Shown here: one piece after another, positions 7,761 through 25,300 of the stretch
Layout of the letters: the number at the start of each line of letters is the position of its first letter
Numbering within the stretch: position 1 is the stretch's first letter
NCBI GenBank assembly: GCA_903905455.1
Contig: CAIVGN010000017.1
Location: 1 to 64,000 of the forward strand
Direction of reading: 5' to 3'
DNA length: 64,000 nt
Source of the DNA: an uncultured Archangium sp.
GTDB taxonomy: Bacteria; Myxococcota; Myxococcia; Myxococcales; Myxococcaceae
Translations under genes and position numbers: made by a program
The notes under the pieces: model-generated
What the model saw: only the letters and a program-made list of their open reading frames with translations
What the model was told of the DNA's origin: nothing
Database searches by the model: none

Positions 7761-8996
7761 GTGCCCCGCGCCCCGCGCCTCGCGTTGTGTGTCCTCGCCG
7801 CCTCTCCCGCGCCGGTCGTGCCACCGCCCCCCCTGACGCTCACCGTCGCCGAGGACGGCACCTTCTCCGTCGCGCGCGAAGGCGCGGGCCTCACCGACCT
7901 CACCGCGAGCATCACCGTGTCGGGCGTCGAAGTGCCGCTCGGTGCCGCCACCGCGAGCCACGCGGCCGGTGACGACGCGCTCGGCCACTACGCAGAGACG
8001 CGGCTCGAGCGCACCCAGGATGCCACGCGGCTGCTGCTGACGCTGCATGCGTACCCGGGCTTCGTCACCGCGCGGCTGTCCGCTTCCTGCGTCGGCACCT
8101 GCGCGGGGGCGCGCGTCGAGGGCTTCACGCTCGCGGGCCACGCCCTGACCCAGGTCTCTGAGCCCACCGCGGTCTTCGCGCACGGCTACAGCAGCTGGGC
8201 CCCGAGCTACTACGCGTCGGTGCAGCGCAGCACCGCCCCGAGCGCCGGCGTCGAGACGCTGGGCAACAACGACAACCACCTCACCACCGACGCGCGGCCC
8301 AGTTGGTGGCTCTCGGCGCTGGTGATGCGCACCGACGCCACGGTCGTCTCCGGCGCGCTGACCGCCGACGCGTGGAAGACGAAGGTGCTCACCTGGCGCG
8401 ACGACGGCGTGCAGGTGCGGCTGCGCAGCGGCGGCGGGGGCGACTCGCTCCCCCTGGGCGTCACCGGCGTCGACTCGGAGCTCTTCTTCTTCACCGTGCG
8501 CGAGGCGCTCAACCCCGCGCTCGCGGCCTGGGCAAACGCGGTGGCCACGCTGGCTCCGCCTCCCGAGGCGCCCTTCGTGCCCGTGGGGTGGAACAGCTGG
8601 AACACGCTCTTCGAAGGCGTCACCCCGGACCACGTGCTGGCCAACGTCGCGCGGGCGCAGGAGCTCGGCTTCGCGCTCAACGACGCGCAGGTCGACGACG
8701 GCTGGGAACTCGCCTGGGGCGACTGGAACGCCAACGCGAAGTTCCCCGCGGGCATGGACGGGCTGGCCACGCAGCTCGCCGCCCGGCAGCTCCACGCGGG
8801 CGTGTGGCTCACGCCGCCGCTCGCCAACGACGCCGACACCATCCTCGTGCGCGGTCTGCCCGCGGGCGTGCAACGGCTGCAGGTGACGATGAACCTGCTG
8901 GCGGGGCGGTTGCTGGGGCGCGAGGTGCGCTTCGCCGACGGGGCGTGGCGCGTGACGGTGCCGGGGCGCGACGCGGCGTACCTGCGGCTGCGTTGA
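7761..8996 (+). CDS. alpha-galactosidase (melibiase)-like protein lacking the catalytic core
   Basis: A protein of about 411 residues with a signal-like N-terminus (LALCVLAASPA), a beta-rich N-terminal domain and the start of a GH36/GH27-type barrel: FVPVGWNSWNTLFEGV, then LNDAQVDDGWE and GVWLTPPL. Full-length enzymes continue with a strand bearing the nucleophile Asp and later an acid/base Asp. Here the text jumps from LTPPL to ANDADTILVRGLPAG, which looks like the C-terminal beta domain. The frame stays open, so this appears to be an in-frame internal deletion and the product is probably inactive. The GTG at 7761 is inferred from the signal peptide. A REP-like element lies upstream. Confidence 0.75.
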   Translation: MPRAPRLALCVLAASPAPVVPPPPLTLTVAEDGTFSVAREGAGLTDLTASITVSGVEVPLGAATASHAAGDDALGHYAETRLERTQDATRLLLTLHAYPGFVTARLSASCVGTCAGARVEGFTLAGHALTQVSEPTAVFAHGYSSWAPSYYASVQRSTAPSAGVETLGNNDNHLTTDARPSWWLSALVMRTDATVVSGALTADAWKTKVLTWRDDGVQVRLRSGGGGDSLPLGVTGVDSELFFFTVREALNPALAAWANAVATLAPPPEAPFVPVGWNSWNTLFEGVTPDHVLANVARAQELGFALNDAQVDDGWELAWGDWNANAKFPAGMDGLATQLAARQLHAGVWLTPPLANDADTILVRGLPAGVQRLQVTMNLLAGRLLGREVRFADGAWRVTVPGRDAAYLRLR

Positions 8997-18022: not shown

Positions 18023-18910
18023 ATGGCGCAGGGTCGCGTAGGCATCATCGGAGGCAGCGGGTTGGGCCAGGCGTTGGGCAGCCTGCTGACGCACAGCGAA
18101 TCGAAGGAAGTCGAGACGCCCTTCGGCCGCCCCTCGGCGCCCATCCTCACCGGGGAGATCGCCGGGGTGCCCGTCGCGCTGCTGCCGCGCCACGGCCACG
18201 GTCACGTGTACAACCCCTCGGTGGTGCCGTACCGCGCCAACCTCTTCGCGCTCAAGACGCTGGGGGTGACGCACCTGCTCACCACCTCGGCCGTCGGCAG
18301 CCTGCGCGAAGAGATCGCCCCGCGCGATCTCGTGGTGCCGGACCAGGTCATCGACCGCACCCATCGCCGCGCGTCGACCTTCTTCGACGACCTCGTGGTG
18401 CACGTCGAGCTCGCGAACCCGTGGTGCTCGCACCTGCGAGAGGACCTGCTCGTCGCGGCACGGCAGACCTCCAGCACGGTGCACGAGGGCGGCACGCTGG
18501 TGGTGATGGAAGGCCCGCAGTTCTCGACCCGCGCCGAGAGCGAGCTGCACCGCAGCTGGGGCGCGAACCTCATCGGCATGACCTCGCAGCCCGAGGCGAA
18601 GCTCGCGCGCGAAGCCGAGCTGTGTTGCGCGACGCTGCTGCTCCCCACCGACTACGACTGCTGGCGCCCGCACAAGGGCGAGCTCGATCGTCACGAGCTG
18701 CTGCGGGAGATCATCGGCAACCTCGAGGCGGCCACGCACCGGGCGCTGGAGACGCTCAAGCGTGCGCTCCCGCTGGTGGCCGCGCGCTTCGACACCCCGT
18801 GCAGTTGCCAGAGCGCGCTGGAGCTCGGCGTGTGGTCCGAGCGCAGCCGCATCGACCCCAAGCAACTCGAGCGCCTCACGCCGTTGCTCGGCCGCGCCCT
18901 CAAGTACTGA
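18023..18910 (+). CDS. mtnP: S-methyl-5'-thioadenosine phosphorylase
   Basis: A 295-residue PNP/MTAP-family phosphorylase. It shows VGIIGGSGLGQ at the phosphate site, LPRHGHGHVYNPSVVPYRANL, LTTSAVGSLREEIAP, VVMEGPQFSTRAES with the Glu-Met region for the ribose, NLIGMTSQPEAKLAREAEL and the base-site LLPTDYDCW. It cleaves methylthioadenosine, the by-product of polyamine and radical SAM chemistry, into adenine and methylthioribose-1-phosphate. Asp in the TDYD motif favours 6-aminopurines, i.e. MTA over inosine. The ATG follows AGGATCCAGGAC. It lies upstream of the Cys-rich/radical SAM cluster, which may be coincidence. Confidence 0.9.
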   Translation: MAQGRVGIIGGSGLGQALGSLLTHSESKEVETPFGRPSAPILTGEIAGVPVALLPRHGHGHVYNPSVVPYRANLFALKTLGVTHLLTTSAVGSLREEIAPRDLVVPDQVIDRTHRRASTFFDDLVVHVELANPWCSHLREDLLVAARQTSSTVHEGGTLVVMEGPQFSTRAESELHRSWGANLIGMTSQPEAKLAREAELCCATLLLPTDYDCWRPHKGELDRHELLREIIGNLEAATHRALETLKRALPLVAARFDTPCSCQSALELGVWSERSRIDPKQLERLTPLLGRALKY

Positions 18911-18947: not shown

Positions 18948-19961
18948 ATGGTGACCACGCCCCATGTCAGCGGCTGCCTGTCGTGCGGCGCCGAGCTCGC
19001 GTACCTCGAGTGCGCCGCATCCATGGTGTGCGAGGGCTGCGGGCGAACGCACCAGAGCAACGCGCGCTGCCTGGCGGGGCACTTCTTCTGTGACGTGTGC
19101 CACTCCGGCGAGACGGTGGAGGTCATCGAGCGGCTGTGCCTCGACTCGACCCAGACCGACCCCGTGGCCATCACCCTTTCGGCCATGCGTCACCCGAAGG
19201 TGAAGATGCACGGCGCCGAGCACCACTACCTCGCCCCGGCGGCGCTGCTCGCGGCCTACTGCAACCAGCGCGGGGAGCCCCTCGAGCGCAAGGCCTCGCT
19301 GCTCGCCGAGGCGAAGAAGCGGGCGGCGCAGGTGCCCGGGGGCACATGTGGCTTCTGGGGTGCCTGCGGGGCCGCCATCGGCAGCGGCATCTTCGTGAGC
19401 CTCGTCACCGGCGCCACGCCGCGCTCGAAGGAGCCGTGGGCCCTGGCCCAGGCGATGACCTCCGAGGTGCTGGGCGTCTACGCGAAGCTCGGCGGCCCGC
19501 GCTGCTGCAAGCGCAACACCTGGGTGGCCACGCTCGCGGCGGCGAAGTTCGCGCGCCAGCGCCTCGACACGCCGATGCGCGCGAAGGGCGCCCGCTGCGA
19601 GTTCAGCGCGCTGAACCCCGACTGCCACAAGCACGAGTGCCCGTTTCACCCGCGCCCCGGGCCTGACGCGGACGCCCGCGCCCTCGAGTCGCTCGAGCTT
19701 GCGCTGCTGGGCATAGAAGATGAGTTCTTCAACGCGGTTGCGCTTCTGGTGCTCGGGGGTGAAGGGCGAAGCGTCGGCCACGCGCATCACCTCGGCGCGC
19801 TCCGGTTCGAGGTAGCTCGACACGTCCTTCGTCAGATCCGGCCGGGTCAAGGTGGGGCAATCGGCCGGCATGCGCGAACAGTCACCCCGAAAGGCGGCCG
19901 CGGTGTGACAGGTGGCGCACCCGTAGAGGTGTTCGTTCGTCATCGGCATCGCGTGCGTTGA
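18948..19961 (+). CDS. DUF5714-like Cys-rich protein with chimeric C-terminus
   Basis: The first ~235 residues match a zinc/metal-binding DUF5714-type protein: GCLSCGAELAYLEC, VCEGCGRTHQSN, CDVCHSGE, then GGTCGFWGACGAAIGSG and CEFSALNPDCHKHECPFHP, where the family normally ends. The frame then continues for about 100 residues that are exactly the antisense of a DUF1847-like fragment on the other strand. This indicates a deletion that removed this gene's stop and the end of the convergent gene. The tail is probably meaningless sequence. The gene lies directly upstream of an ArsM-like methyltransferase, peptide and radical SAM cluster. Its function is unknown. Confidence 0.75.
   Translation: MVTTPHVSGCLSCGAELAYLECAASMVCEGCGRTHQSNARCLAGHFFCDVCHSGETVEVIERLCLDSTQTDPVAITLSAMRHPKVKMHGAEHHYLAPAALLAAYCNQRGEPLERKASLLAEAKKRAAQVPGGTCGFWGACGAAIGSGIFVSLVTGATPRSKEPWALAQAMTSEVLGVYAKLGGPRCCKRNTWVATLAAAKFARQRLDTPMRAKGARCEFSALNPDCHKHECPFHPRPGPDADARALESLELALLGIEDEFFNAVALLVLGGEGRSVGHAHHLGALRFEVARHVLRQIRPGQGGAIGRHARTVTPKGGRGVTGGAPVEVFVRHRHRVR
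19690..19949 (-). pseudogene. DUF1847-like gene fragment (N-terminal part only)
   Basis: Reading from ATG 19949 the minus strand encodes HLYGCATCHTAAAFRGDC, then MPADCPTLT and NRVEELIFYAQQRKLE. This is the pattern of the start of DUF1847 proteins (Cys-rich N-terminus followed by an R-x-E-E-hhh-F-A helix). The family normally continues with a Gly-Ile-Ala-Phe-Cys strand and more than 100 further residues; here the sequence runs straight into the antisense of the DUF5714-like gene near 19690. So the gene is truncated at its 3' end. It diverges from the methyltransferase gene. Family assignment is from memory of the motif. Confidence 0.55.
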
Positions 19962-20034
19962 GAGCAGCGGAGCGGGTGAACGGTTCGCTTCGACGCAGGT
20001 GAACCGAACGCGGTGGGCGTCGGCTCCAAAGCCC

Positions 20035-20682
20035 GTGACCTCCTCCGTCAGTCCCGCCATCCAGCAGCGCTACGGCGTCCTCGCGACGCAGCCCGGCAGC
20101 CTCTCGTGTGGAGGCGCCGCGACTTCGTGTGAGGCCACGCCGGGTCAGACCTGTGTCGATCTCGGCTGCGGGCGGGGTCGCGACGTGCTGGTGCTGGCCC
20201 AGAAGGTCGGCCCGTACGGTCACGTGTTCGGCATCGATGGCTCGCCGGCCATGGTGGAGGCCGCCCAGTCCCTGGCGCGGGAAGCGGGCCTGCGCAACGT
20301 CACCATTCGCGAGTCGTCGCTGGAGGCGCTCTCGCTGGCCGACGCCTCGGTGGACTGGGTGGTGTCGAACTGCGCCCTGAACCACGCGCGCGACAAGGCC
20401 CGCGTGTGGAGCGAGATCGCGCGCGTCCTCACGCCGGGCGGCCGCTTCCTCGTCAGCGACATCTACGCGGTCGAGGCCATCGCCGAGGAGCACCGCAACG
20501 ACCCCGTCGCCGTGGCCGAGTGCTGGGCCGGCGCCGAGACCCGGCCGGAGTACCTGGCCCACGTCGCCGCCGCCGGCTTCGATCAGGTCGAGGTCACCTC
20601 CGAGCGCGCCCCGTACCGCAAGCAGCACGCGCTGCTGGCGAGCTTCACGCTGTCTGGCCGCAAGACCGCCCACGCCCGCTGA
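20035..20682 (+). CDS. ArsM-like SAM-dependent methyltransferase
   Basis: About 215 residues. The motif CVDLGCGRGRDVLVLAQKVG is the SAM site, followed by FGIDGSPAMVEAA and VDWVVSNCALNHARDKARV, which closely follows the arsenite methyltransferase pattern (SNCVINL-x-DK). A further Cys in AECWAGAETRPEYL sits where ArsM enzymes have a metalloid-binding Cys; the second classical C-terminal Cys is not seen, so arsenic methylation is not assured. Upstream cysteines SLSCGGAATSC are also present. GTG 20035 is preferred; GTG 19999 is an alternative. The adjacent Cys-rich peptide is a possible substrate or metal carrier, which is inference. Confidence 0.8.
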   Translation: MTSSVSPAIQQRYGVLATQPGSLSCGGAATSCEATPGQTCVDLGCGRGRDVLVLAQKVGPYGHVFGIDGSPAMVEAAQSLAREAGLRNVTIRESSLEALSLADASVDWVVSNCALNHARDKARVWSEIARVLTPGGRFLVSDIYAVEAIAEEHRNDPVAVAECWAGAETRPEYLAHVAAAGFDQVEVTSERAPYRKQHALLASFTLSGRKTAHAR

Positions 20683-20704
20683 ACGGGGCGCGGAGCCCAC
20701 GTCG

Positions 20705-20713
20705 AGGAGGTGA
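20705..20713 (+). promoter_or_regulatory. perfect Shine-Dalgarno sequence for the Cys-rich peptide gene
   Basis: AGGAGGTGA lies six bases before ATG 20720, a nine-base match to the usual 16S rRNA 3' end (recalled consensus). Few other genes in this window show a comparable site; most rely on overlaps or weak GGAG-type sequences. It strongly supports real and high translation of a peptide of only 36 codons. Confidence 0.8.
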
Positions 20714-20719
20714 ATCACC

Positions 20720-20830
20720 ATGAAGTCGCTCATCAAGAAGCCCGCAACCGCCTGCTGCGCCCCCTCGCAAGAGAAGGTCGCGCAGTGCTGCGCGAAGGTC
20801 TCGAAGAACGTCGCCGGCTGTCACGACTGA
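20720..20830 (+). CDS. Cys-rich peptide, putative RiPP precursor
   Basis: A 36-residue peptide that starts MKSLIKKPATACCAPS and then carries AQCCAKVSKNVAGCHD at the C-terminus. It has five cysteines arranged as CC, ten residues later CC, then a single Cys three residues from the end. The N-terminus is Lys-rich and could act as a short leader; the C-terminal two thirds could be the core. It follows the ArsM-like methyltransferase gene and lies 73 bases before a radical SAM/SPASM gene, the usual layout for a modified peptide. The near-perfect ribosome-binding site supports translation. Alternatives are a small metallothionein-like metal binder or metallochaperone. Confidence 0.72.
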   Translation: MKSLIKKPATACCAPSQEKVAQCCAKVSKNVAGCHD

Positions 20831-20903
20831 CGTCGCCTTGAACACCCCGCGGGGCCCGGCTCGCCAACGGGTCGGTCCCGCATCTTTCCCCCGCAGGAGC
20901 CCC

Positions 20904-22214
20904 ATGCAGCCTTCCAAGCACAACATCCTCACCCAGGTGGCGGGCAGCGAGTCGTGGCTGCTGGTGAACCTGCTCGCTGGCCAGGCCGATCTCCTCGACG
21001 CCGACACCGCGGCCCGCTTTCAACGCGGCGAGCTGCTCGATCCCGAGGCCTTCGCCGCCAAGGGCTACCTCGTCGAACCGGCGGAAGAGGCGCGTCGCTA
21101 CGCGGCCGCGAAGGAGAAGTTCGCCGAAGGGCAGAAGGACGACGAGGTGCAGCTGTTCTTCGTGCCCTCGTACGCCTGCAACTTCGGCTGTTCGTATTGT
21201 TTCCAGGACGAGTACGCGCCGCAGAAGACCCACGACCCCGACGCGGTCATCGACGCGTTCTTCTCGTACGTCGACGACACCTTCGCCGGGCGCCGCAAGT
21301 ACGTGACGCTGTTCGGCGGCGAGCCGCTGCTCGACACCCCGAAGAACCGTCACGTCGTCGAGAAGTTGATCGAGGGCACGAAGGCGCGCGGCCTCGACCT
21401 GGCGATCATCACCAACGGCTATTCGCTCGAGAGCTACGTGCCGCTGCTGCAGACCGGGCGCATTCGCGAGGTGCAGGTGACCCTCGATGGGCCGCGCGCG
21501 ATGCACGACCAGCGACGCTCCCTCAAGGGCGGGGGCCCCACGTTCGACCGCGTGGTGGAGGGCATCAACGCGGCGCTCGAAGGCGGCCTCACCGTCAACC
21601 TGCGCGCGGTGCTCGACAAGGAGAACCTCGGCGGCTTCGGCGAACTCGCGCACTTCGCCATTGCCCAGGGGTGGACGGAGAACAGGCGCTTCAAGACGCA
21701 GGTCGGTCGCAACTACGAGCTGCACCACTGCCAGACGAACAACACCCGGCTCTACACGCGGCTCTCGCTCTGGGAGGACATGTACGAGCTCATCCAGGCC
21801 GACCCGGAGATCCTGCGCTTCTACCGGCCCGCGTACTCGGTCTCGCGCTTCCTCTTCGACGAGGGGCAGCTCCCCGAGCCGCTGTTCGATTCGTGCCCGG
21901 CCACCAAGACCGAGTGGGCCTTCGACGCCACCGGCTCGATCTACCCGTGCACCGCGAACGTGGGCAAAGACGCCGAAGAGATCGGCACCTTCTTCCCCAC
22001 CCGCACCTTGAAGGCCGACGAGGTCAGCGACTGGTCCGGCCGCGACGTCACCAGCATCTCGAGCTGCAGCAGTTGTTCGAACCAGCTCGCCTGTGGCGGT
22101 GGTTGCGGCGCGGTGTCCAGGAGCTGGAAGGGCACCATTCGCGCGTCCGACTGCCGGCCGGTGAAGGAGTTGCTCGGCATGGGCTGCGCCCTCTACGGCC
22201 AGCGAGAACTCTGA
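20904..22214 (+). CDS. radical SAM/SPASM peptide maturase
   Basis: A 436-residue enzyme. Residues 1-80 form an N-terminal domain common to peptide-modifying SPASM enzymes (HNILTQVAGSESWLLVNLLAG, then KGYLVEP). Cys92, Cys96 and Cys99 (CNFGCSYCFQD) bind the SAM cluster; TLFGGEPLLD is the GGE motif. The SPASM region has CPATKTEWAFDATGSIYPC, then SSCSSCSNQLACGGGCG and DCRPVKELLGMGC, enough cysteines for two auxiliary 4Fe-4S clusters. Such enzymes cross-link or epimerise residues in ribosomal peptides. ATG 20904 follows CAGGAG. The adjacent Cys-rich 36-residue peptide is the obvious candidate substrate. Confidence 0.88.
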   Translation: MQPSKHNILTQVAGSESWLLVNLLAGQADLLDADTAARFQRGELLDPEAFAAKGYLVEPAEEARRYAAAKEKFAEGQKDDEVQLFFVPSYACNFGCSYCFQDEYAPQKTHDPDAVIDAFFSYVDDTFAGRRKYVTLFGGEPLLDTPKNRHVVEKLIEGTKARGLDLAIITNGYSLESYVPLLQTGRIREVQVTLDGPRAMHDQRRSLKGGGPTFDRVVEGINAALEGGLTVNLRAVLDKENLGGFGELAHFAIAQGWTENRRFKTQVGRNYELHHCQTNNTRLYTRLSLWEDMYELIQADPEILRFYRPAYSVSRFLFDEGQLPEPLFDSCPATKTEWAFDATGSIYPCTANVGKDAEEIGTFFPTRTLKADEVSDWSGRDVTSISSCSSCSNQLACGGGCGAVSRSWKGTIRASDCRPVKELLGMGCALYGQREL

Positions 22215-22241
22215 AAGCAGCAGCACCCCGAAGGAGCCACC

Positions 22242-23531
22242 ATGTCCGACGCCGTTCGTGAAATCACCGCCGCCGAGTTTCCCGCGGTGCTCGCCTCGAA
22301 GAAGAAGGTGGTGGTCGACTTCTATTCGAGCGAGTGCCCGCCCTGCGAAGCGCTCGCGCCCAAGTACGAGGCCGTCGCCGGGCTGTTCCGCGAAGACGTC
22401 GAGTTCGTGAAGGTGTTCCGCCAGCAGAACCGGGAGCTGGCCACCGAGCTGGGAGTGAAGGGATCCCCCACGGTGCTCTTCTTCGAGAACGGGAAGGAGG
22501 TCAGCCCGCGGTTGACCGCCGCCATCAAGCGCTCCGAGCTGCTGCAAGGCCTCCACGCGCTGGTGCCCGGACCGCGCTTCGAGACCCTCAAGGCGCAGGC
22601 GAAGACGAGCCACACCGAGGCCGACGTGCTGATCCTCGGGGCCGGCCCGGCGGGCGTCACGGCGGGCATCTACTGCGCGCAGGCAAGGCTCAACACGGTG
22701 ATGGTGGACCTGGGCCTGGGCGGCGGCAACGTGGCCACCACGCACCAGGTCTCGAACTTCCCCGGCTTCCCCAGGGCCATGCCCGGGTACCTGTTGGCGG
22801 ATCACCTGGTCGAGCAGGCGAAGCTCGCCGGCGTGCACCCGCGGCTCGCGGCCGAGGTGACGAGCATCGACCTCGAGAAGAAGACCGTGGTGCTCGACGG
22901 GCTCGAGACCATCGTCGCCAAGCGGCTGATCATCGCCACCGGTTCGACCCCGCGCATCATCGGGGTCAAGGGCGAGCGCGAGTTCAAGGGCAAGGGCGTG
23001 TCGTACTGCGCGACCTGCGACGCCAAGTACTACGAGGGCAAGCACGTGGTGGTCATCGGCGGCGGCAACTCGGCCGTCGAGGAGTCGCTGTTCATCGCGC
23101 GGTTCGCCGCGAACATCACCATCGTCAACCAGTTCCCCACGCTCCAGGCCAACCAGCACGCGCAGGCCCAGGCGAAGGCCGAACCGAAGATCGAGTTCCG
23201 CCTCTCGACCCAGCCCCGCGAGTTCCTCTCCCGGGGAGGGAAGGGCGTGGACGGGGTGCTGGTGGAGGACCTCGCGACGCACGAGCAGTACGTCCTGGAC
23301 TGCGACGGGGTGTTCGTCTTCGCCGGCATGGTGCCCAACCTCGAGCTGCTCGAGGGGCGCTTCAAGCTCGACAGCTGGGGCTACATCGCGGTCGACGACG
23401 AGATGCGCACCAACGTGCCCGGGGTGTTCGCCGCCGGTGACGTGGCCACCAAGAAGTTCCGGCAGATCACCACCGCGGTCGCCGACGGCACCATCGCCTC
23501 GATGGCCCTGGCCAAAGAGCTGACGGTGTGA
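22242..23531 (+). CDS. thioredoxin-thioredoxin reductase fusion
   Basis: A 429-residue two-domain protein. Residues 1-105 are a thioredoxin with active site CPPC at Cys32/Cys35 and the cis-Pro loop GSPTVLFF. From about residue 125 it is a low-molecular-weight thioredoxin reductase: VLILGAGPAGVTAGIYCAQA for FAD, then CATC as the redox disulfide, VVVIGGGNSAVEESL for NADPH and VFAAGDVATKKFRQI at the C-terminus. It would pass electrons from NADPH to a disulfide substrate in one polypeptide. An AAGGAG site precedes the ATG. Its stop overlaps the OPT transporter start (GTGTGA). In this cluster it may keep the Cys-rich peptide or its partners reduced. Confidence 0.9.
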   Translation: MSDAVREITAAEFPAVLASKKKVVVDFYSSECPPCEALAPKYEAVAGLFREDVEFVKVFRQQNRELATELGVKGSPTVLFFENGKEVSPRLTAAIKRSELLQGLHALVPGPRFETLKAQAKTSHTEADVLILGAGPAGVTAGIYCAQARLNTVMVDLGLGGGNVATTHQVSNFPGFPRAMPGYLLADHLVEQAKLAGVHPRLAAEVTSIDLEKKTVVLDGLETIVAKRLIIATGSTPRIIGVKGEREFKGKGVSYCATCDAKYYEGKHVVVIGGGNSAVEESLFIARFAANITIVNQFPTLQANQHAQAQAKAEPKIEFRLSTQPREFLSRGGKGVDGVLVEDLATHEQYVLDCDGVFVFAGMVPNLELLEGRFKLDSWGYIAVDDEMRTNVPGVFAAGDVATKKFRQITTAVADGTIASMALAKELTV

Positions 23532-25300
23532 CCGACGAAGAGCGGTGGGTGCAGGAGGTCTACCAGGGGCCTGACCGCCAGCTCACCGTCCGCGCGGCGC
23601 TCACCGGCATGGGCCTGGGCGCGGTGCTGTGCCTCTCGAACCTCTACGTGGTGCTCAAGACCGGGTGGAGCCTCGGCGTCACCATCACCGCCACCATCGT
23701 CGCCTACGGCCTGTTTCGCGCGCTGCGGCTCGGTGGCTTCAGTCGCACGCCCTTCTCGGCGCTGGAGAACAACGCCGTCGCCTCGGTCGCCTCGTCGGGT
23801 GCGTGGATGACCGGCGGTGGCAACATGGCGGCGCTGCCCGCGCTGCTGCTCTTGACCGGCCAGCGCCCCGGAGGCCTGGTGATGGTGGCGTGGTTCGCGC
23901 TCATCGCCGCCCTCGGCGTCTTCGTGGCCATCCCCCTCAAGCGGCAGTTCATCAACCGCGAGAAGCTCCCGTTCCCCATGTCGGTGGCCACGGCCGAGGC
24001 CATCCGGACCATGCATGGCACCGGTGACGCGCGCCCGGCGCGGCTGCTGGTGCAGGCGGGCCTCGTGGCTTCGCTGTTCACCCTGTGGCGCGACGTGCGC
24101 GGGCCCTTCTCGTTTCCCTGGAGGCTCGCGGCGCCGTTCTCGCTCTCCGGTCACCCCGCGGCCGCGTGGTCGCTGGGCTTCGACTCGAGCCTGGTGCTGC
24201 TGGGCGGTGGCTCGTTGATGGCCCCGCGCACCGCGGCCTCGATGCTGCTCGGCGCGCTGTTGACCTGGGGCGTGCTGGCGCCGTGGGTGGTCGCCTCGGG
24301 CTTCGTGAGCAGCGTGGACTTCAAGGCCCTCGTGCAGTTCATGCTCTGGCCCGCGGCCGCGCTGCTGGTCACCTCGGGGGTGCTCTCGTTCGTGCTGCGG
24401 TGGCGCTCGCTGCTCGACGCGCTCTCGAGCCTGGGCGCCGTGCTGCGTCCCGGGGCGAGGCCAGCCCCCTCCGCGGTCGACGCGGTCGAGGCGCCGGCAT
24501 GGTGGGCCGTGGCCGGCTTCGTGGTGCTCGCGCCGCCGCTGGTGCTGTTGATGTGGTGGCAGTTCGACATTCCGCTCTGGGCTGGGGCGCTGGCCATGCC
24601 CCTGGCCTTGCTGGTGGGCGCCATCGCCGCGCGGGTGACCGGCGAGACCGACATCACGCCCACCAAGGCCATGGGACCGCTGACCCAGTTGGTGTTCGGC
24701 GTCGCGTTGCCCGGGCACGTCGCGGCCAACGTGATGAGCGCCAACGTGACCTCGGGCGTGGGGTTGCACGCGGCGGACCTCCTGAGCGATCTCAAGACTG
24801 GCTGGGTGCTGGGCGCCGACCCGCGCCAGCAGGTCTACGCGCAGTTCCTCGGACTGGTGGTGGGCGCAGCGGTGGTGGTGCCCGCCTTCACGCTGCTGAT
24901 CCCCGACGCATCGGTGCTCGGCTCCGAGCAGTTCCCCGCGCCGGCGGTCATGGTGTGGGCCGGGGTCTCGAAGGTGCTGGCGGGCGGCCTCGGTGGGTTG
25001 CCGCGCGGGGCCGTGGGGGCGATGTTCGCGGCCGCCGCGCTGGGCATGGTGCTCTCGGTGCTCGAGGCGCTGCTCCCCGCCCGGCGCAAGGCGTGGTTGC
25101 CCTCACCGTCGGCCCTGGGCATCTCCATGGTGATTCCCGCGGCGACCGCGTTGACCATGGTGGCCGGCGCCGTGGGGGGCGCGGTGCTGCGGCGGCGTTG
25201 GTCGACCGCCACCCTGACGCCGGTGGCCTCGGGCCTCATCGCGGGCGAGAGCGTCACCGGCGTGGCCCTGGCGCTGGGGCGCGTGTTGTTCGGCGGCTGA
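23528..25300 (+). CDS. OPT-family oligopeptide transporter
   Basis: A 590-residue polytopic membrane protein with about 14-16 hydrophobic segments. Motifs include LCLSNLYVVLKTGWSLGVTI at the first helix, SGAWMTGGGNMAAL, KLPFPMSVATAEAIRTMHG, GETDITPTKAMGPLTQLVFG and QQVYAQFLGLVVGA, typical of the bacterial OPT branch. OPT transporters move oligopeptides, glutathione or metal-ligand complexes (YSL type), usually driven by protons. The GTG overlaps the preceding reductase gene, so it belongs to the same operon. Import or export of the modified peptide, possibly loaded with metal, is the plausible role; this is inference. Confidence 0.88.
   Translation: MTDEERWVQEVYQGPDRQLTVRAALTGMGLGAVLCLSNLYVVLKTGWSLGVTITATIVAYGLFRALRLGGFSRTPFSALENNAVASVASSGAWMTGGGNMAALPALLLLTGQRPGGLVMVAWFALIAALGVFVAIPLKRQFINREKLPFPMSVATAEAIRTMHGTGDARPARLLVQAGLVASLFTLWRDVRGPFSFPWRLAAPFSLSGHPAAAWSLGFDSSLVLLGGGSLMAPRTAASMLLGALLTWGVLAPWVVASGFVSSVDFKALVQFMLWPAAALLVTSGVLSFVLRWRSLLDALSSLGAVLRPGARPAPSAVDAVEAPAWWAVAGFVVLAPPLVLLMWWQFDIPLWAGALAMPLALLVGAIAARVTGETDITPTKAMGPLTQLVFGVALPGHVAANVMSANVTSGVGLHAADLLSDLKTGWVLGADPRQQVYAQFLGLVVGAAVVVPAFTLLIPDASVLGSEQFPAPAVMVWAGVSKVLAGGLGGLPRGAVGAMFAAAALGMVLSVLEALLPARRKAWLPSPSALGISMVIPAATALTMVAGAVGGAVLRRRWSTATLTPVASGLIAGESVTGVALALGRVLFGG

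Follow-up and report, generated by a model that had tools for sequence, protein, structure and literature searches.

A candidate operon for a peptide-derived thiol compound in an uncultured Archangium: a conserved cysteine-rich peptide with its radical SAM/SPASM enzyme, methyltransferase and thioredoxin system

The DNA analysed here, called the window throughout, comprises 64,000 nucleotides from an uncultured Archangium sp. of the Myxococcota (GenBank assembly GCA_903905455.1, contig CAIVGN010000017.1, positions 1 to 64,000 of the forward strand). Between positions 18,948 and 25,300, it carries a gene for a 36-residue cysteine-rich peptide together with genes for a radical S-adenosylmethionine (SAM) enzyme with a SPASM domain, an ArsM-like methyltransferase and a thioredoxin-thioredoxin reductase fusion (Trx-TrxR), and we find that these genes co-occur in several phyla. 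The locus comprises the following features, in window positions:

18948..19961, plus strand: DUF5714 cysteine-rich protein (PF18978, 205 bits; the domain ends at about 19650)
19701..19946, minus strand: remnant of a DUF1847 gene (the sister genome G051, locus L031, has the complete gene at the corresponding position, also on the minus strand)
19999..20682, plus strand: ArsM-like SAM-dependent methyltransferase (Pfam Methyltransf_31; start codon uncertain, GTG at 19999)
20704..20713, plus strand: Shine-Dalgarno sequence of the peptide gene (GAGGAGGTG region), as read from the letters
20720..20830, plus strand: precursor peptide MKSLIKKPATACCAPSQEKVAQCCAKVSKNVAGCHD, 36 residues (core found in 77/80 homologous loci)
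20904..22214, plus strand: radical SAM/SPASM peptide maturase with a putative N-terminal RRE-like domain (motifs, AlphaFold model)
22242..23531, plus strand: Trx-TrxR fusion (CPPC and CATC motifs)
23528..25300, plus strand: OPT-family transporter, a clade-specific accessory (PF03169, 287 bits)

Every gene listed in an earlier, sequence-only reading of the window was found where that reading had placed it, on the plus strand, and the overlap that it had seen between the Trx-TrxR and OPT genes measures 4 bases. Its inventory had overlooked the antisense DUF1847 fragment between DUF5714 and the methyltransferase. A scan of the locus for promoters and terminators gave a result no better than chance.

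A genome-wide scan seeded with the SPASM protein only returned 148 relatives, from which 80 loci were kept. The identity of the SPASM protein to the query is 55-85% in the Myxococcota loci and 49-54% in those from Bacteroidota, one Ignavibacteria genome and one Neomarinimicrobiota genome. In 77 of the 80 loci, a short open reading frame (ORF) on the same strand upstream of the SPASM gene ends in AQCCAKxSKxVxGCHD, and ten of the last 16 positions (A-16, C-14, C-13, A-12, K-11, S-9, G-4, C-3, H-2 and D-1) are identical in all 77 peptides. The peptide-bearing loci come from Myxococcota, Bacteroidota, Ignavibacteria and Neomarinimicrobiota, in every case with this radical SAM/SPASM enzyme next to the peptide. 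Because the core amino acids remain constant while the synonymous codons at the invariant positions vary freely across low- and high-GC genomes, selection acts at the protein level. The ORF in the window is preceded by a strong Shine-Dalgarno sequence (GAGGAGGTGAATCACC-ATG). Judged from these comparisons, the peptide ORF is a real gene and no chance ORF. Across the homologous loci, the N-terminus is also conserved (MK[SNT]L[IV]KK) and the middle is variable in length and sequence; the MKSLIKK segment of the window peptide is a probable leader. The description of the product as a five-cysteine peptide holds for most Myxococcota members, but the universal core consists of three cysteines, a histidine and an aspartate. 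One of the three loci in which the peptide was not found, L035, ends at a contig end.

The association of the peptide with the SPASM enzyme can be assessed across 195 Myxococcota genomes, in which a genome was taken as SPASM-positive at E <= 1e-60. The exact core pattern occurs in 21 of the 24 SPASM-positive genomes and in none of the 171 SPASM-negative ones (Fisher p = 2.6e-25, a value that overstates independence because the genomes are kin to each other), and the reversed pattern, used as a control in the search of the 195 genomes, had 0 matches among the genomes listed. Two of the three SPASM-positive exceptions, G017 and G021, carry the one-residue variant CCAKASPLVSGCHD. The pairing of core pattern and SPASM enzyme is also seen in three further families of the phylum (G150, G155 and G193). 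A short gene-encoded precursor and a peptide-modifying enzyme are conserved here as a pair, as expected of a ribosomally synthesized and post-translationally modified peptide (RiPP), and the peptide is very likely the substrate of the SPASM enzyme.

The conserved set is wider than this pair and includes the methyltransferase, the peptide, the SPASM enzyme, a thioredoxin with a CPPC motif and a thioredoxin reductase. Counted over the testable loci, 73/75 have the methyltransferase, 77/79 the peptide and 77/79 Trx-TrxR (64/64 Bacteroidota-type and 13/15 Myxococcota loci). Pairwise distances among the SPASM enzymes, methyltransferases and Trx-TrxR proteins are strongly correlated (rho 0.85-0.92, permutation maximum 0.25), also within the Bacteroidota-type set alone (rho 0.75-0.82, permutation maximum 0.35), which is consistent with joint inheritance of the three proteins. 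The sequence-only reading had envisaged a SPASM-associated cysteine peptide with a methyltransferase and a thioredoxin system of its own, and this view is borne out; the co-occurrence that it had also expected of the OPT gene is confined to Myxococcota. It had further reasoned that the cluster would be coincidental if SPASM homologues occurred without any short cysteine-rich gene and the genes were rarely found together, whereas we observed tight co-occurrence across phyla.

An Anaeromyxobacter-like clade, whose genus name we infer, has SPASM enzymes with 42-46% identity to that of the window. The possibility that this clade lacks the peptide was ruled out because the peptide (MKLLT..CC..EK.AQCCAKASRLVSGCHD) was found at another position in the cluster, usually directly upstream of the thioredoxin gene. 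Thioredoxin and thioredoxin reductase are two separate adjacent genes in several of these loci but a single fused gene in the clade of the window, and this pair of arrangements links their functions. In the fusion, the CPPC motif occupies residues 32-35 and the CATC motif of the reductase residues 256-259, and these cysteines are invariant in 78 sequences.

In the SPASM enzyme, the CX3CX2C motif (C92/C96/C99), the complete seven-cysteine SPASM motif (C331-x12-G-x4-C349; C388xxC391x5C397x3C401; C417) and one further cysteine, C276, are invariant in 89 sequences. The closest structure to its AlphaFold model (mean predicted local distance difference test score, pLDDT, 86) is CteB, the SCIFF thioether maturase (Z 25.8 over 394 residues, N-terminal domain included), followed by anSME and ChlB. 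Residues from about 1 to 60 of the model form three strands and then helices; the match to CteB was obtained with the full-length model. The enzyme shares with CteB/SCIFF and PapB an architecture of a putative N-terminal RRE-like domain, a radical SAM barrel and a SPASM domain, but its identity to these ranthipeptide- and sactipeptide-type maturases is 17-19%, the precursor differs, and its scores are far under the NCBIfam cut-offs (73 against 425 for SCIFF, 93 against 340 for PapB). To our knowledge, the CteB/SCIFF and PapB systems include neither a methyltransferase nor Trx-TrxR. The nearest curated sequence families are TIGR04463 'rSAM_vs_C_rich' and NF038107 CefB, which, by the names of the models, have cysteine-rich peptides as partners; the window enzyme scores 121 bits with the first (cut-off 525) and 115 bits with the second (cut-off 600), and one Bacteroidota and one Anaeromyxobacter-like member are about equally far from these models. 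Against the mycofactocin maturase model TIGR03962, it scores 41.7 bits (cut-off 265). By analogy with CteB, the enzyme probably forms cysteine thioether crosslinks, although a shared fold is no proof of reaction.

When plasmids were searched with the SPASM enzyme, a single distant match, in Rhodococcus, was obtained. Distant SPASM genes (27-32% identity) in the family to which the window belongs are not accompanied by the core pattern and apparently form part of different RiPP systems. Two such genes with 28-30% identity, in L027 (843, minus strand) and L029 (3255, plus strand), have nearby candidate cysteine-rich precursors ending in ...CEPNCRCNYLA and ...CCPSNTVPVNPCHTYSTNC, respectively, and each is probably a separate RiPP system.

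For the methyltransferase, the best NCBIfam model is the arsenite methyltransferase PRK11873 (169 bits, under the cut-off of 263), and the protein falls below the cut-off of every ArsM model. The ArsM enzymes are its closest solved relatives by sequence, but the window protein is about 150 residues shorter. Cysteines 34, 122 and 172 (numbered from base 20008) are invariant or nearly so in the family. The As(III) ligands of CmArsM are C72, C174 and C224. C34 and C172, both conserved, align with C72 and C174; the alignment stops before C224, and no invariant cysteine follows C172 in the family.

The genes surrounding the conserved set vary between clades. Of the testable loci, 9 of the 12 from Myxococcota and none of the 45 of Bacteroidota type have the OPT gene after the set; judged by this distribution, it is a Myxococcota-only addition and OPT transport is no core function, contrary to the suggestion that OPT moves the product as part of the system. 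The DUF5714 gene in the window stands in place of the 3' half of DUF1847, and, antisense to the DUF1847 remnant, its frame reads on for about 100 codons. In the sister genome, a complete DUF1847 gene on the minus strand adjoins the methyltransferase gene, and DUF5714 lies on a different contig. The antisense DUF1847 ORF was considered as a small protein and rejected because the complete sister-genome gene shows it to be a remnant. Among the Myxococcota genomes, DUF5714 occurs in 13/24 SPASM-positive and 5/171 SPASM-negative genomes, and DUF1847 in 11/24 and 7/171, an enrichment that is confounded by shared ancestry and lifestyle. The DUF5714 neighbour singled out earlier therefore does co-occur with the system in other genomes, but its adjacency in the window is due to local rearrangement. 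DUF5714 resembles a 'metal-binding double selenoprotein' model, under the cut-off, and a search with its own structural model (pLDDT 82) gave no solved structure at E <= 0.001.

Several families recur in the Bacteroidota-type loci, namely DUF302 (30/56), DUF6132 (32/56), an extra thioredoxin (21/53) and DUF1847 (19/64); in about eleven of these loci, DUF1847 lies between the SPASM and Trx-TrxR genes (e.g. L067:9333-9881). No transporter, exporter, protease or peptidase, or immunity gene is recurrent in the Bacteroidota-type loci, and no arsenic- or metal-resistance family is recurrent among the clustered neighbours or the 25 commonest Pfam families (90 neighbours scanned). A flavin adenine dinucleotide-dependent oxidoreductase of the sulfide:quinone reductase (SQR) type, a relative of the type III enzymes, lies within several kilobases of the cluster in L111, L114, L118 and several Bacteroidota-type loci such as L080, that is, in both phyla. 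Upstream of the window cluster is a 5'-methylthioadenosine phosphorylase gene (18023-18910), which does not recur in homologous loci.

The gene set, its conservation and co-occurrence, the domain and motif content and the predicted fold are directly established, and from these we infer a crosslink type, a methyl target, reduction of the product and a cofactor role. We favour, with a probability of roughly 0.55, the interpretation that the operon directs the biosynthesis of a thiol compound derived from a ribosomally made peptide, and that this compound most likely remains in the cell as a redox or metal-binding cofactor. Under this model, the RRE-like N-terminal domain of the SPASM enzyme would bind the precursor via MKSLIKK, and the enzyme would introduce one or more radical crosslinks, probably the thioethers discussed above, into the AQCCAKxSKxVxGCHD core. 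The methyltransferase would methylate the product or something held by its cysteine residues, and the private Trx-TrxR with NADPH would keep the thiols of the precursor or product reduced.

The mycofactocin system combines a single SPASM enzyme and a short precursor, the C-terminus of which hardly varies, with a uniform set of maturation genes that is sparsely distributed over phyla, whereas bacteriocin systems differ between strains (PMC3023750). The present locus shows the same signature of a nearly invariant precursor C-terminus with a uniform enzyme set across phyla, and since exporters, peptidases and immunity genes do not recur around it in the Bacteroidota-type loci, its organization fits that of cofactors and not of bacteriocins. 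Mycofactocin (MftA/MftC) and pyrroloquinoline quinone (PQQ) likewise rely on a short precursor, one SPASM enzyme and a uniform, sparse gene set; the core peptide of the window is, however, unrelated and cysteine-rich, and the ArsM-like methyltransferase and Trx-TrxR take the place of the mycofactocin partners. Only tentatively would we go further and propose a new ribosomal redox cofactor or low-molecular-weight thiol of the standing of mycofactocin or PQQ, common to Myxococcota, Bacteroidota, Ignavibacteria and Neomarinimicrobiota; the dedicated NADPH-thioredoxin reductase would recycle it.

Several observations weigh against a retained thiol cofactor. Neither a product nor a mass shift nor a phenotype is known and, unlike the nicotinoproteins of mycofactocin, no dependent enzyme family was identified, whole-proteome profiling not having been run. 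In Myxococcota, the OPT protein could serve export or uptake, and the thioredoxin system could serve the enzymes and not the product. Two Bacteroidales loci, L086 and L109 (SPASM at 8001), keep the SPASM and Trx-TrxR genes without the peptide; both are also without the methyltransferase, however, and this joint variation of peptide and methyltransferase speaks for the favoured interpretation. The Anaeromyxobacter-like genome G029 (L142, G029:C164) has the methyltransferase, SPASM, thioredoxin and thioredoxin reductase genes, but no peptide was detected at the usual place beside the thioredoxin gene and the exact pattern was found nowhere in the genome. Finally, the loci and genomes are phylogenetically non-independent.

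The main rival is a metallophore or another metal- or metalloid-binding peptide, in which the CC pair, cysteine, histidine and aspartate would serve as ligands for copper, zinc, mercury or arsenic; a metalloid held in this way would be methylated by the ArsM-like enzyme, and OPT would move the complex. The core is rich in just these residues, C34 and C172 fall on two ArsM ligand positions in an enzyme whose nearest relative is ArsM, OPT adjoins most testable Myxococcota loci and DUF5714 has its sub-threshold likeness to a metal-binding model. However, the third ligand region lies outside the alignment with the shorter methyltransferase, the testable Bacteroidota-type loci lack OPT altogether and no arsenic- or metal-resistance family recurs in the neighbourhood. 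The metal or metalloid role put forward in the sequence-only reading accordingly received no specific support, an arsenic role is weakly supported, and we consider this alternative rather unlikely. Export of the product as an antibiotic or signalling RiPP akin to the ranthipeptides or sactipeptides would accord with the thioether-forming fold of the maturase but appears highly improbable given a core that is almost invariant across phyla and the lack of recurrent exporter, peptidase and immunity genes in the Bacteroidota-type loci.

Two further alternatives concern the thiol chemistry itself. Thioredoxin and its reductase might not act on the product but keep the precursor cysteines reduced before maturation or feed electrons to the iron-sulfur clusters of the SPASM enzyme. 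Radical SAM enzymes depend on electrons of low potential, cysteine substrates have to be free thiols and the genetic linkage is strict; nevertheless, the potential of thioredoxin is normally too high for a radical SAM cluster, and most SPASM systems known to us have no private thioredoxin system, so that we regard this assignment as possible but doubtful. The peptide could alternatively act as an intact small protein, either structural or sulfur-carrying, that receives a single modification from the enzymes; sulfide or persulfide metabolism would be one setting for it. Some neighbours in Bacteroidota-type and Anaeromyxobacter-like loci are indeed related to sulfur or thiols (the SQR-type flavoprotein, a YeeE/YedE-type transporter with a rhodanese domain, OsmC and extra thioredoxins, with the unexplained DUF302 and DUF6132 also counted among them), but they are found in only a fraction of the loci and their counts lack a background comparison; such a role seems unlikely.

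In NCBIfam (June 2026), the general SPASM-domain model excepted, no model reached its cut-off for the SPASM enzyme or the peptide from three lineages or for the methyltransferase from two. Open-access full text yielded nothing on the core motif, TIGR04463, DUF1847/DUF5714, Anaeromyxobacter RiPPs or thioredoxin reductase with radical SAM precursor clusters, and nothing related on CefB. Compared with this open-access literature, the locus is best read as a new family within the radical SAM RiPPs, whose cofactor-like signature is uncommon and whose partners have not been described as a set.

If the favoured interpretation of a peptide-derived thiol cofactor is correct, these loci would define a new family of peptide-derived metabolites whose active part is nearly unchanged across phyla, implying a basic cellular role. 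The family would come with a complete and compact enzyme set, the Anaeromyxobacter-like clade included. An orphan branch of ArsM-like methyltransferases and the Trx-TrxR fusions would thereby gain a role, and so, possibly, would the unexplained DUF1847, DUF5714 and DUF302.

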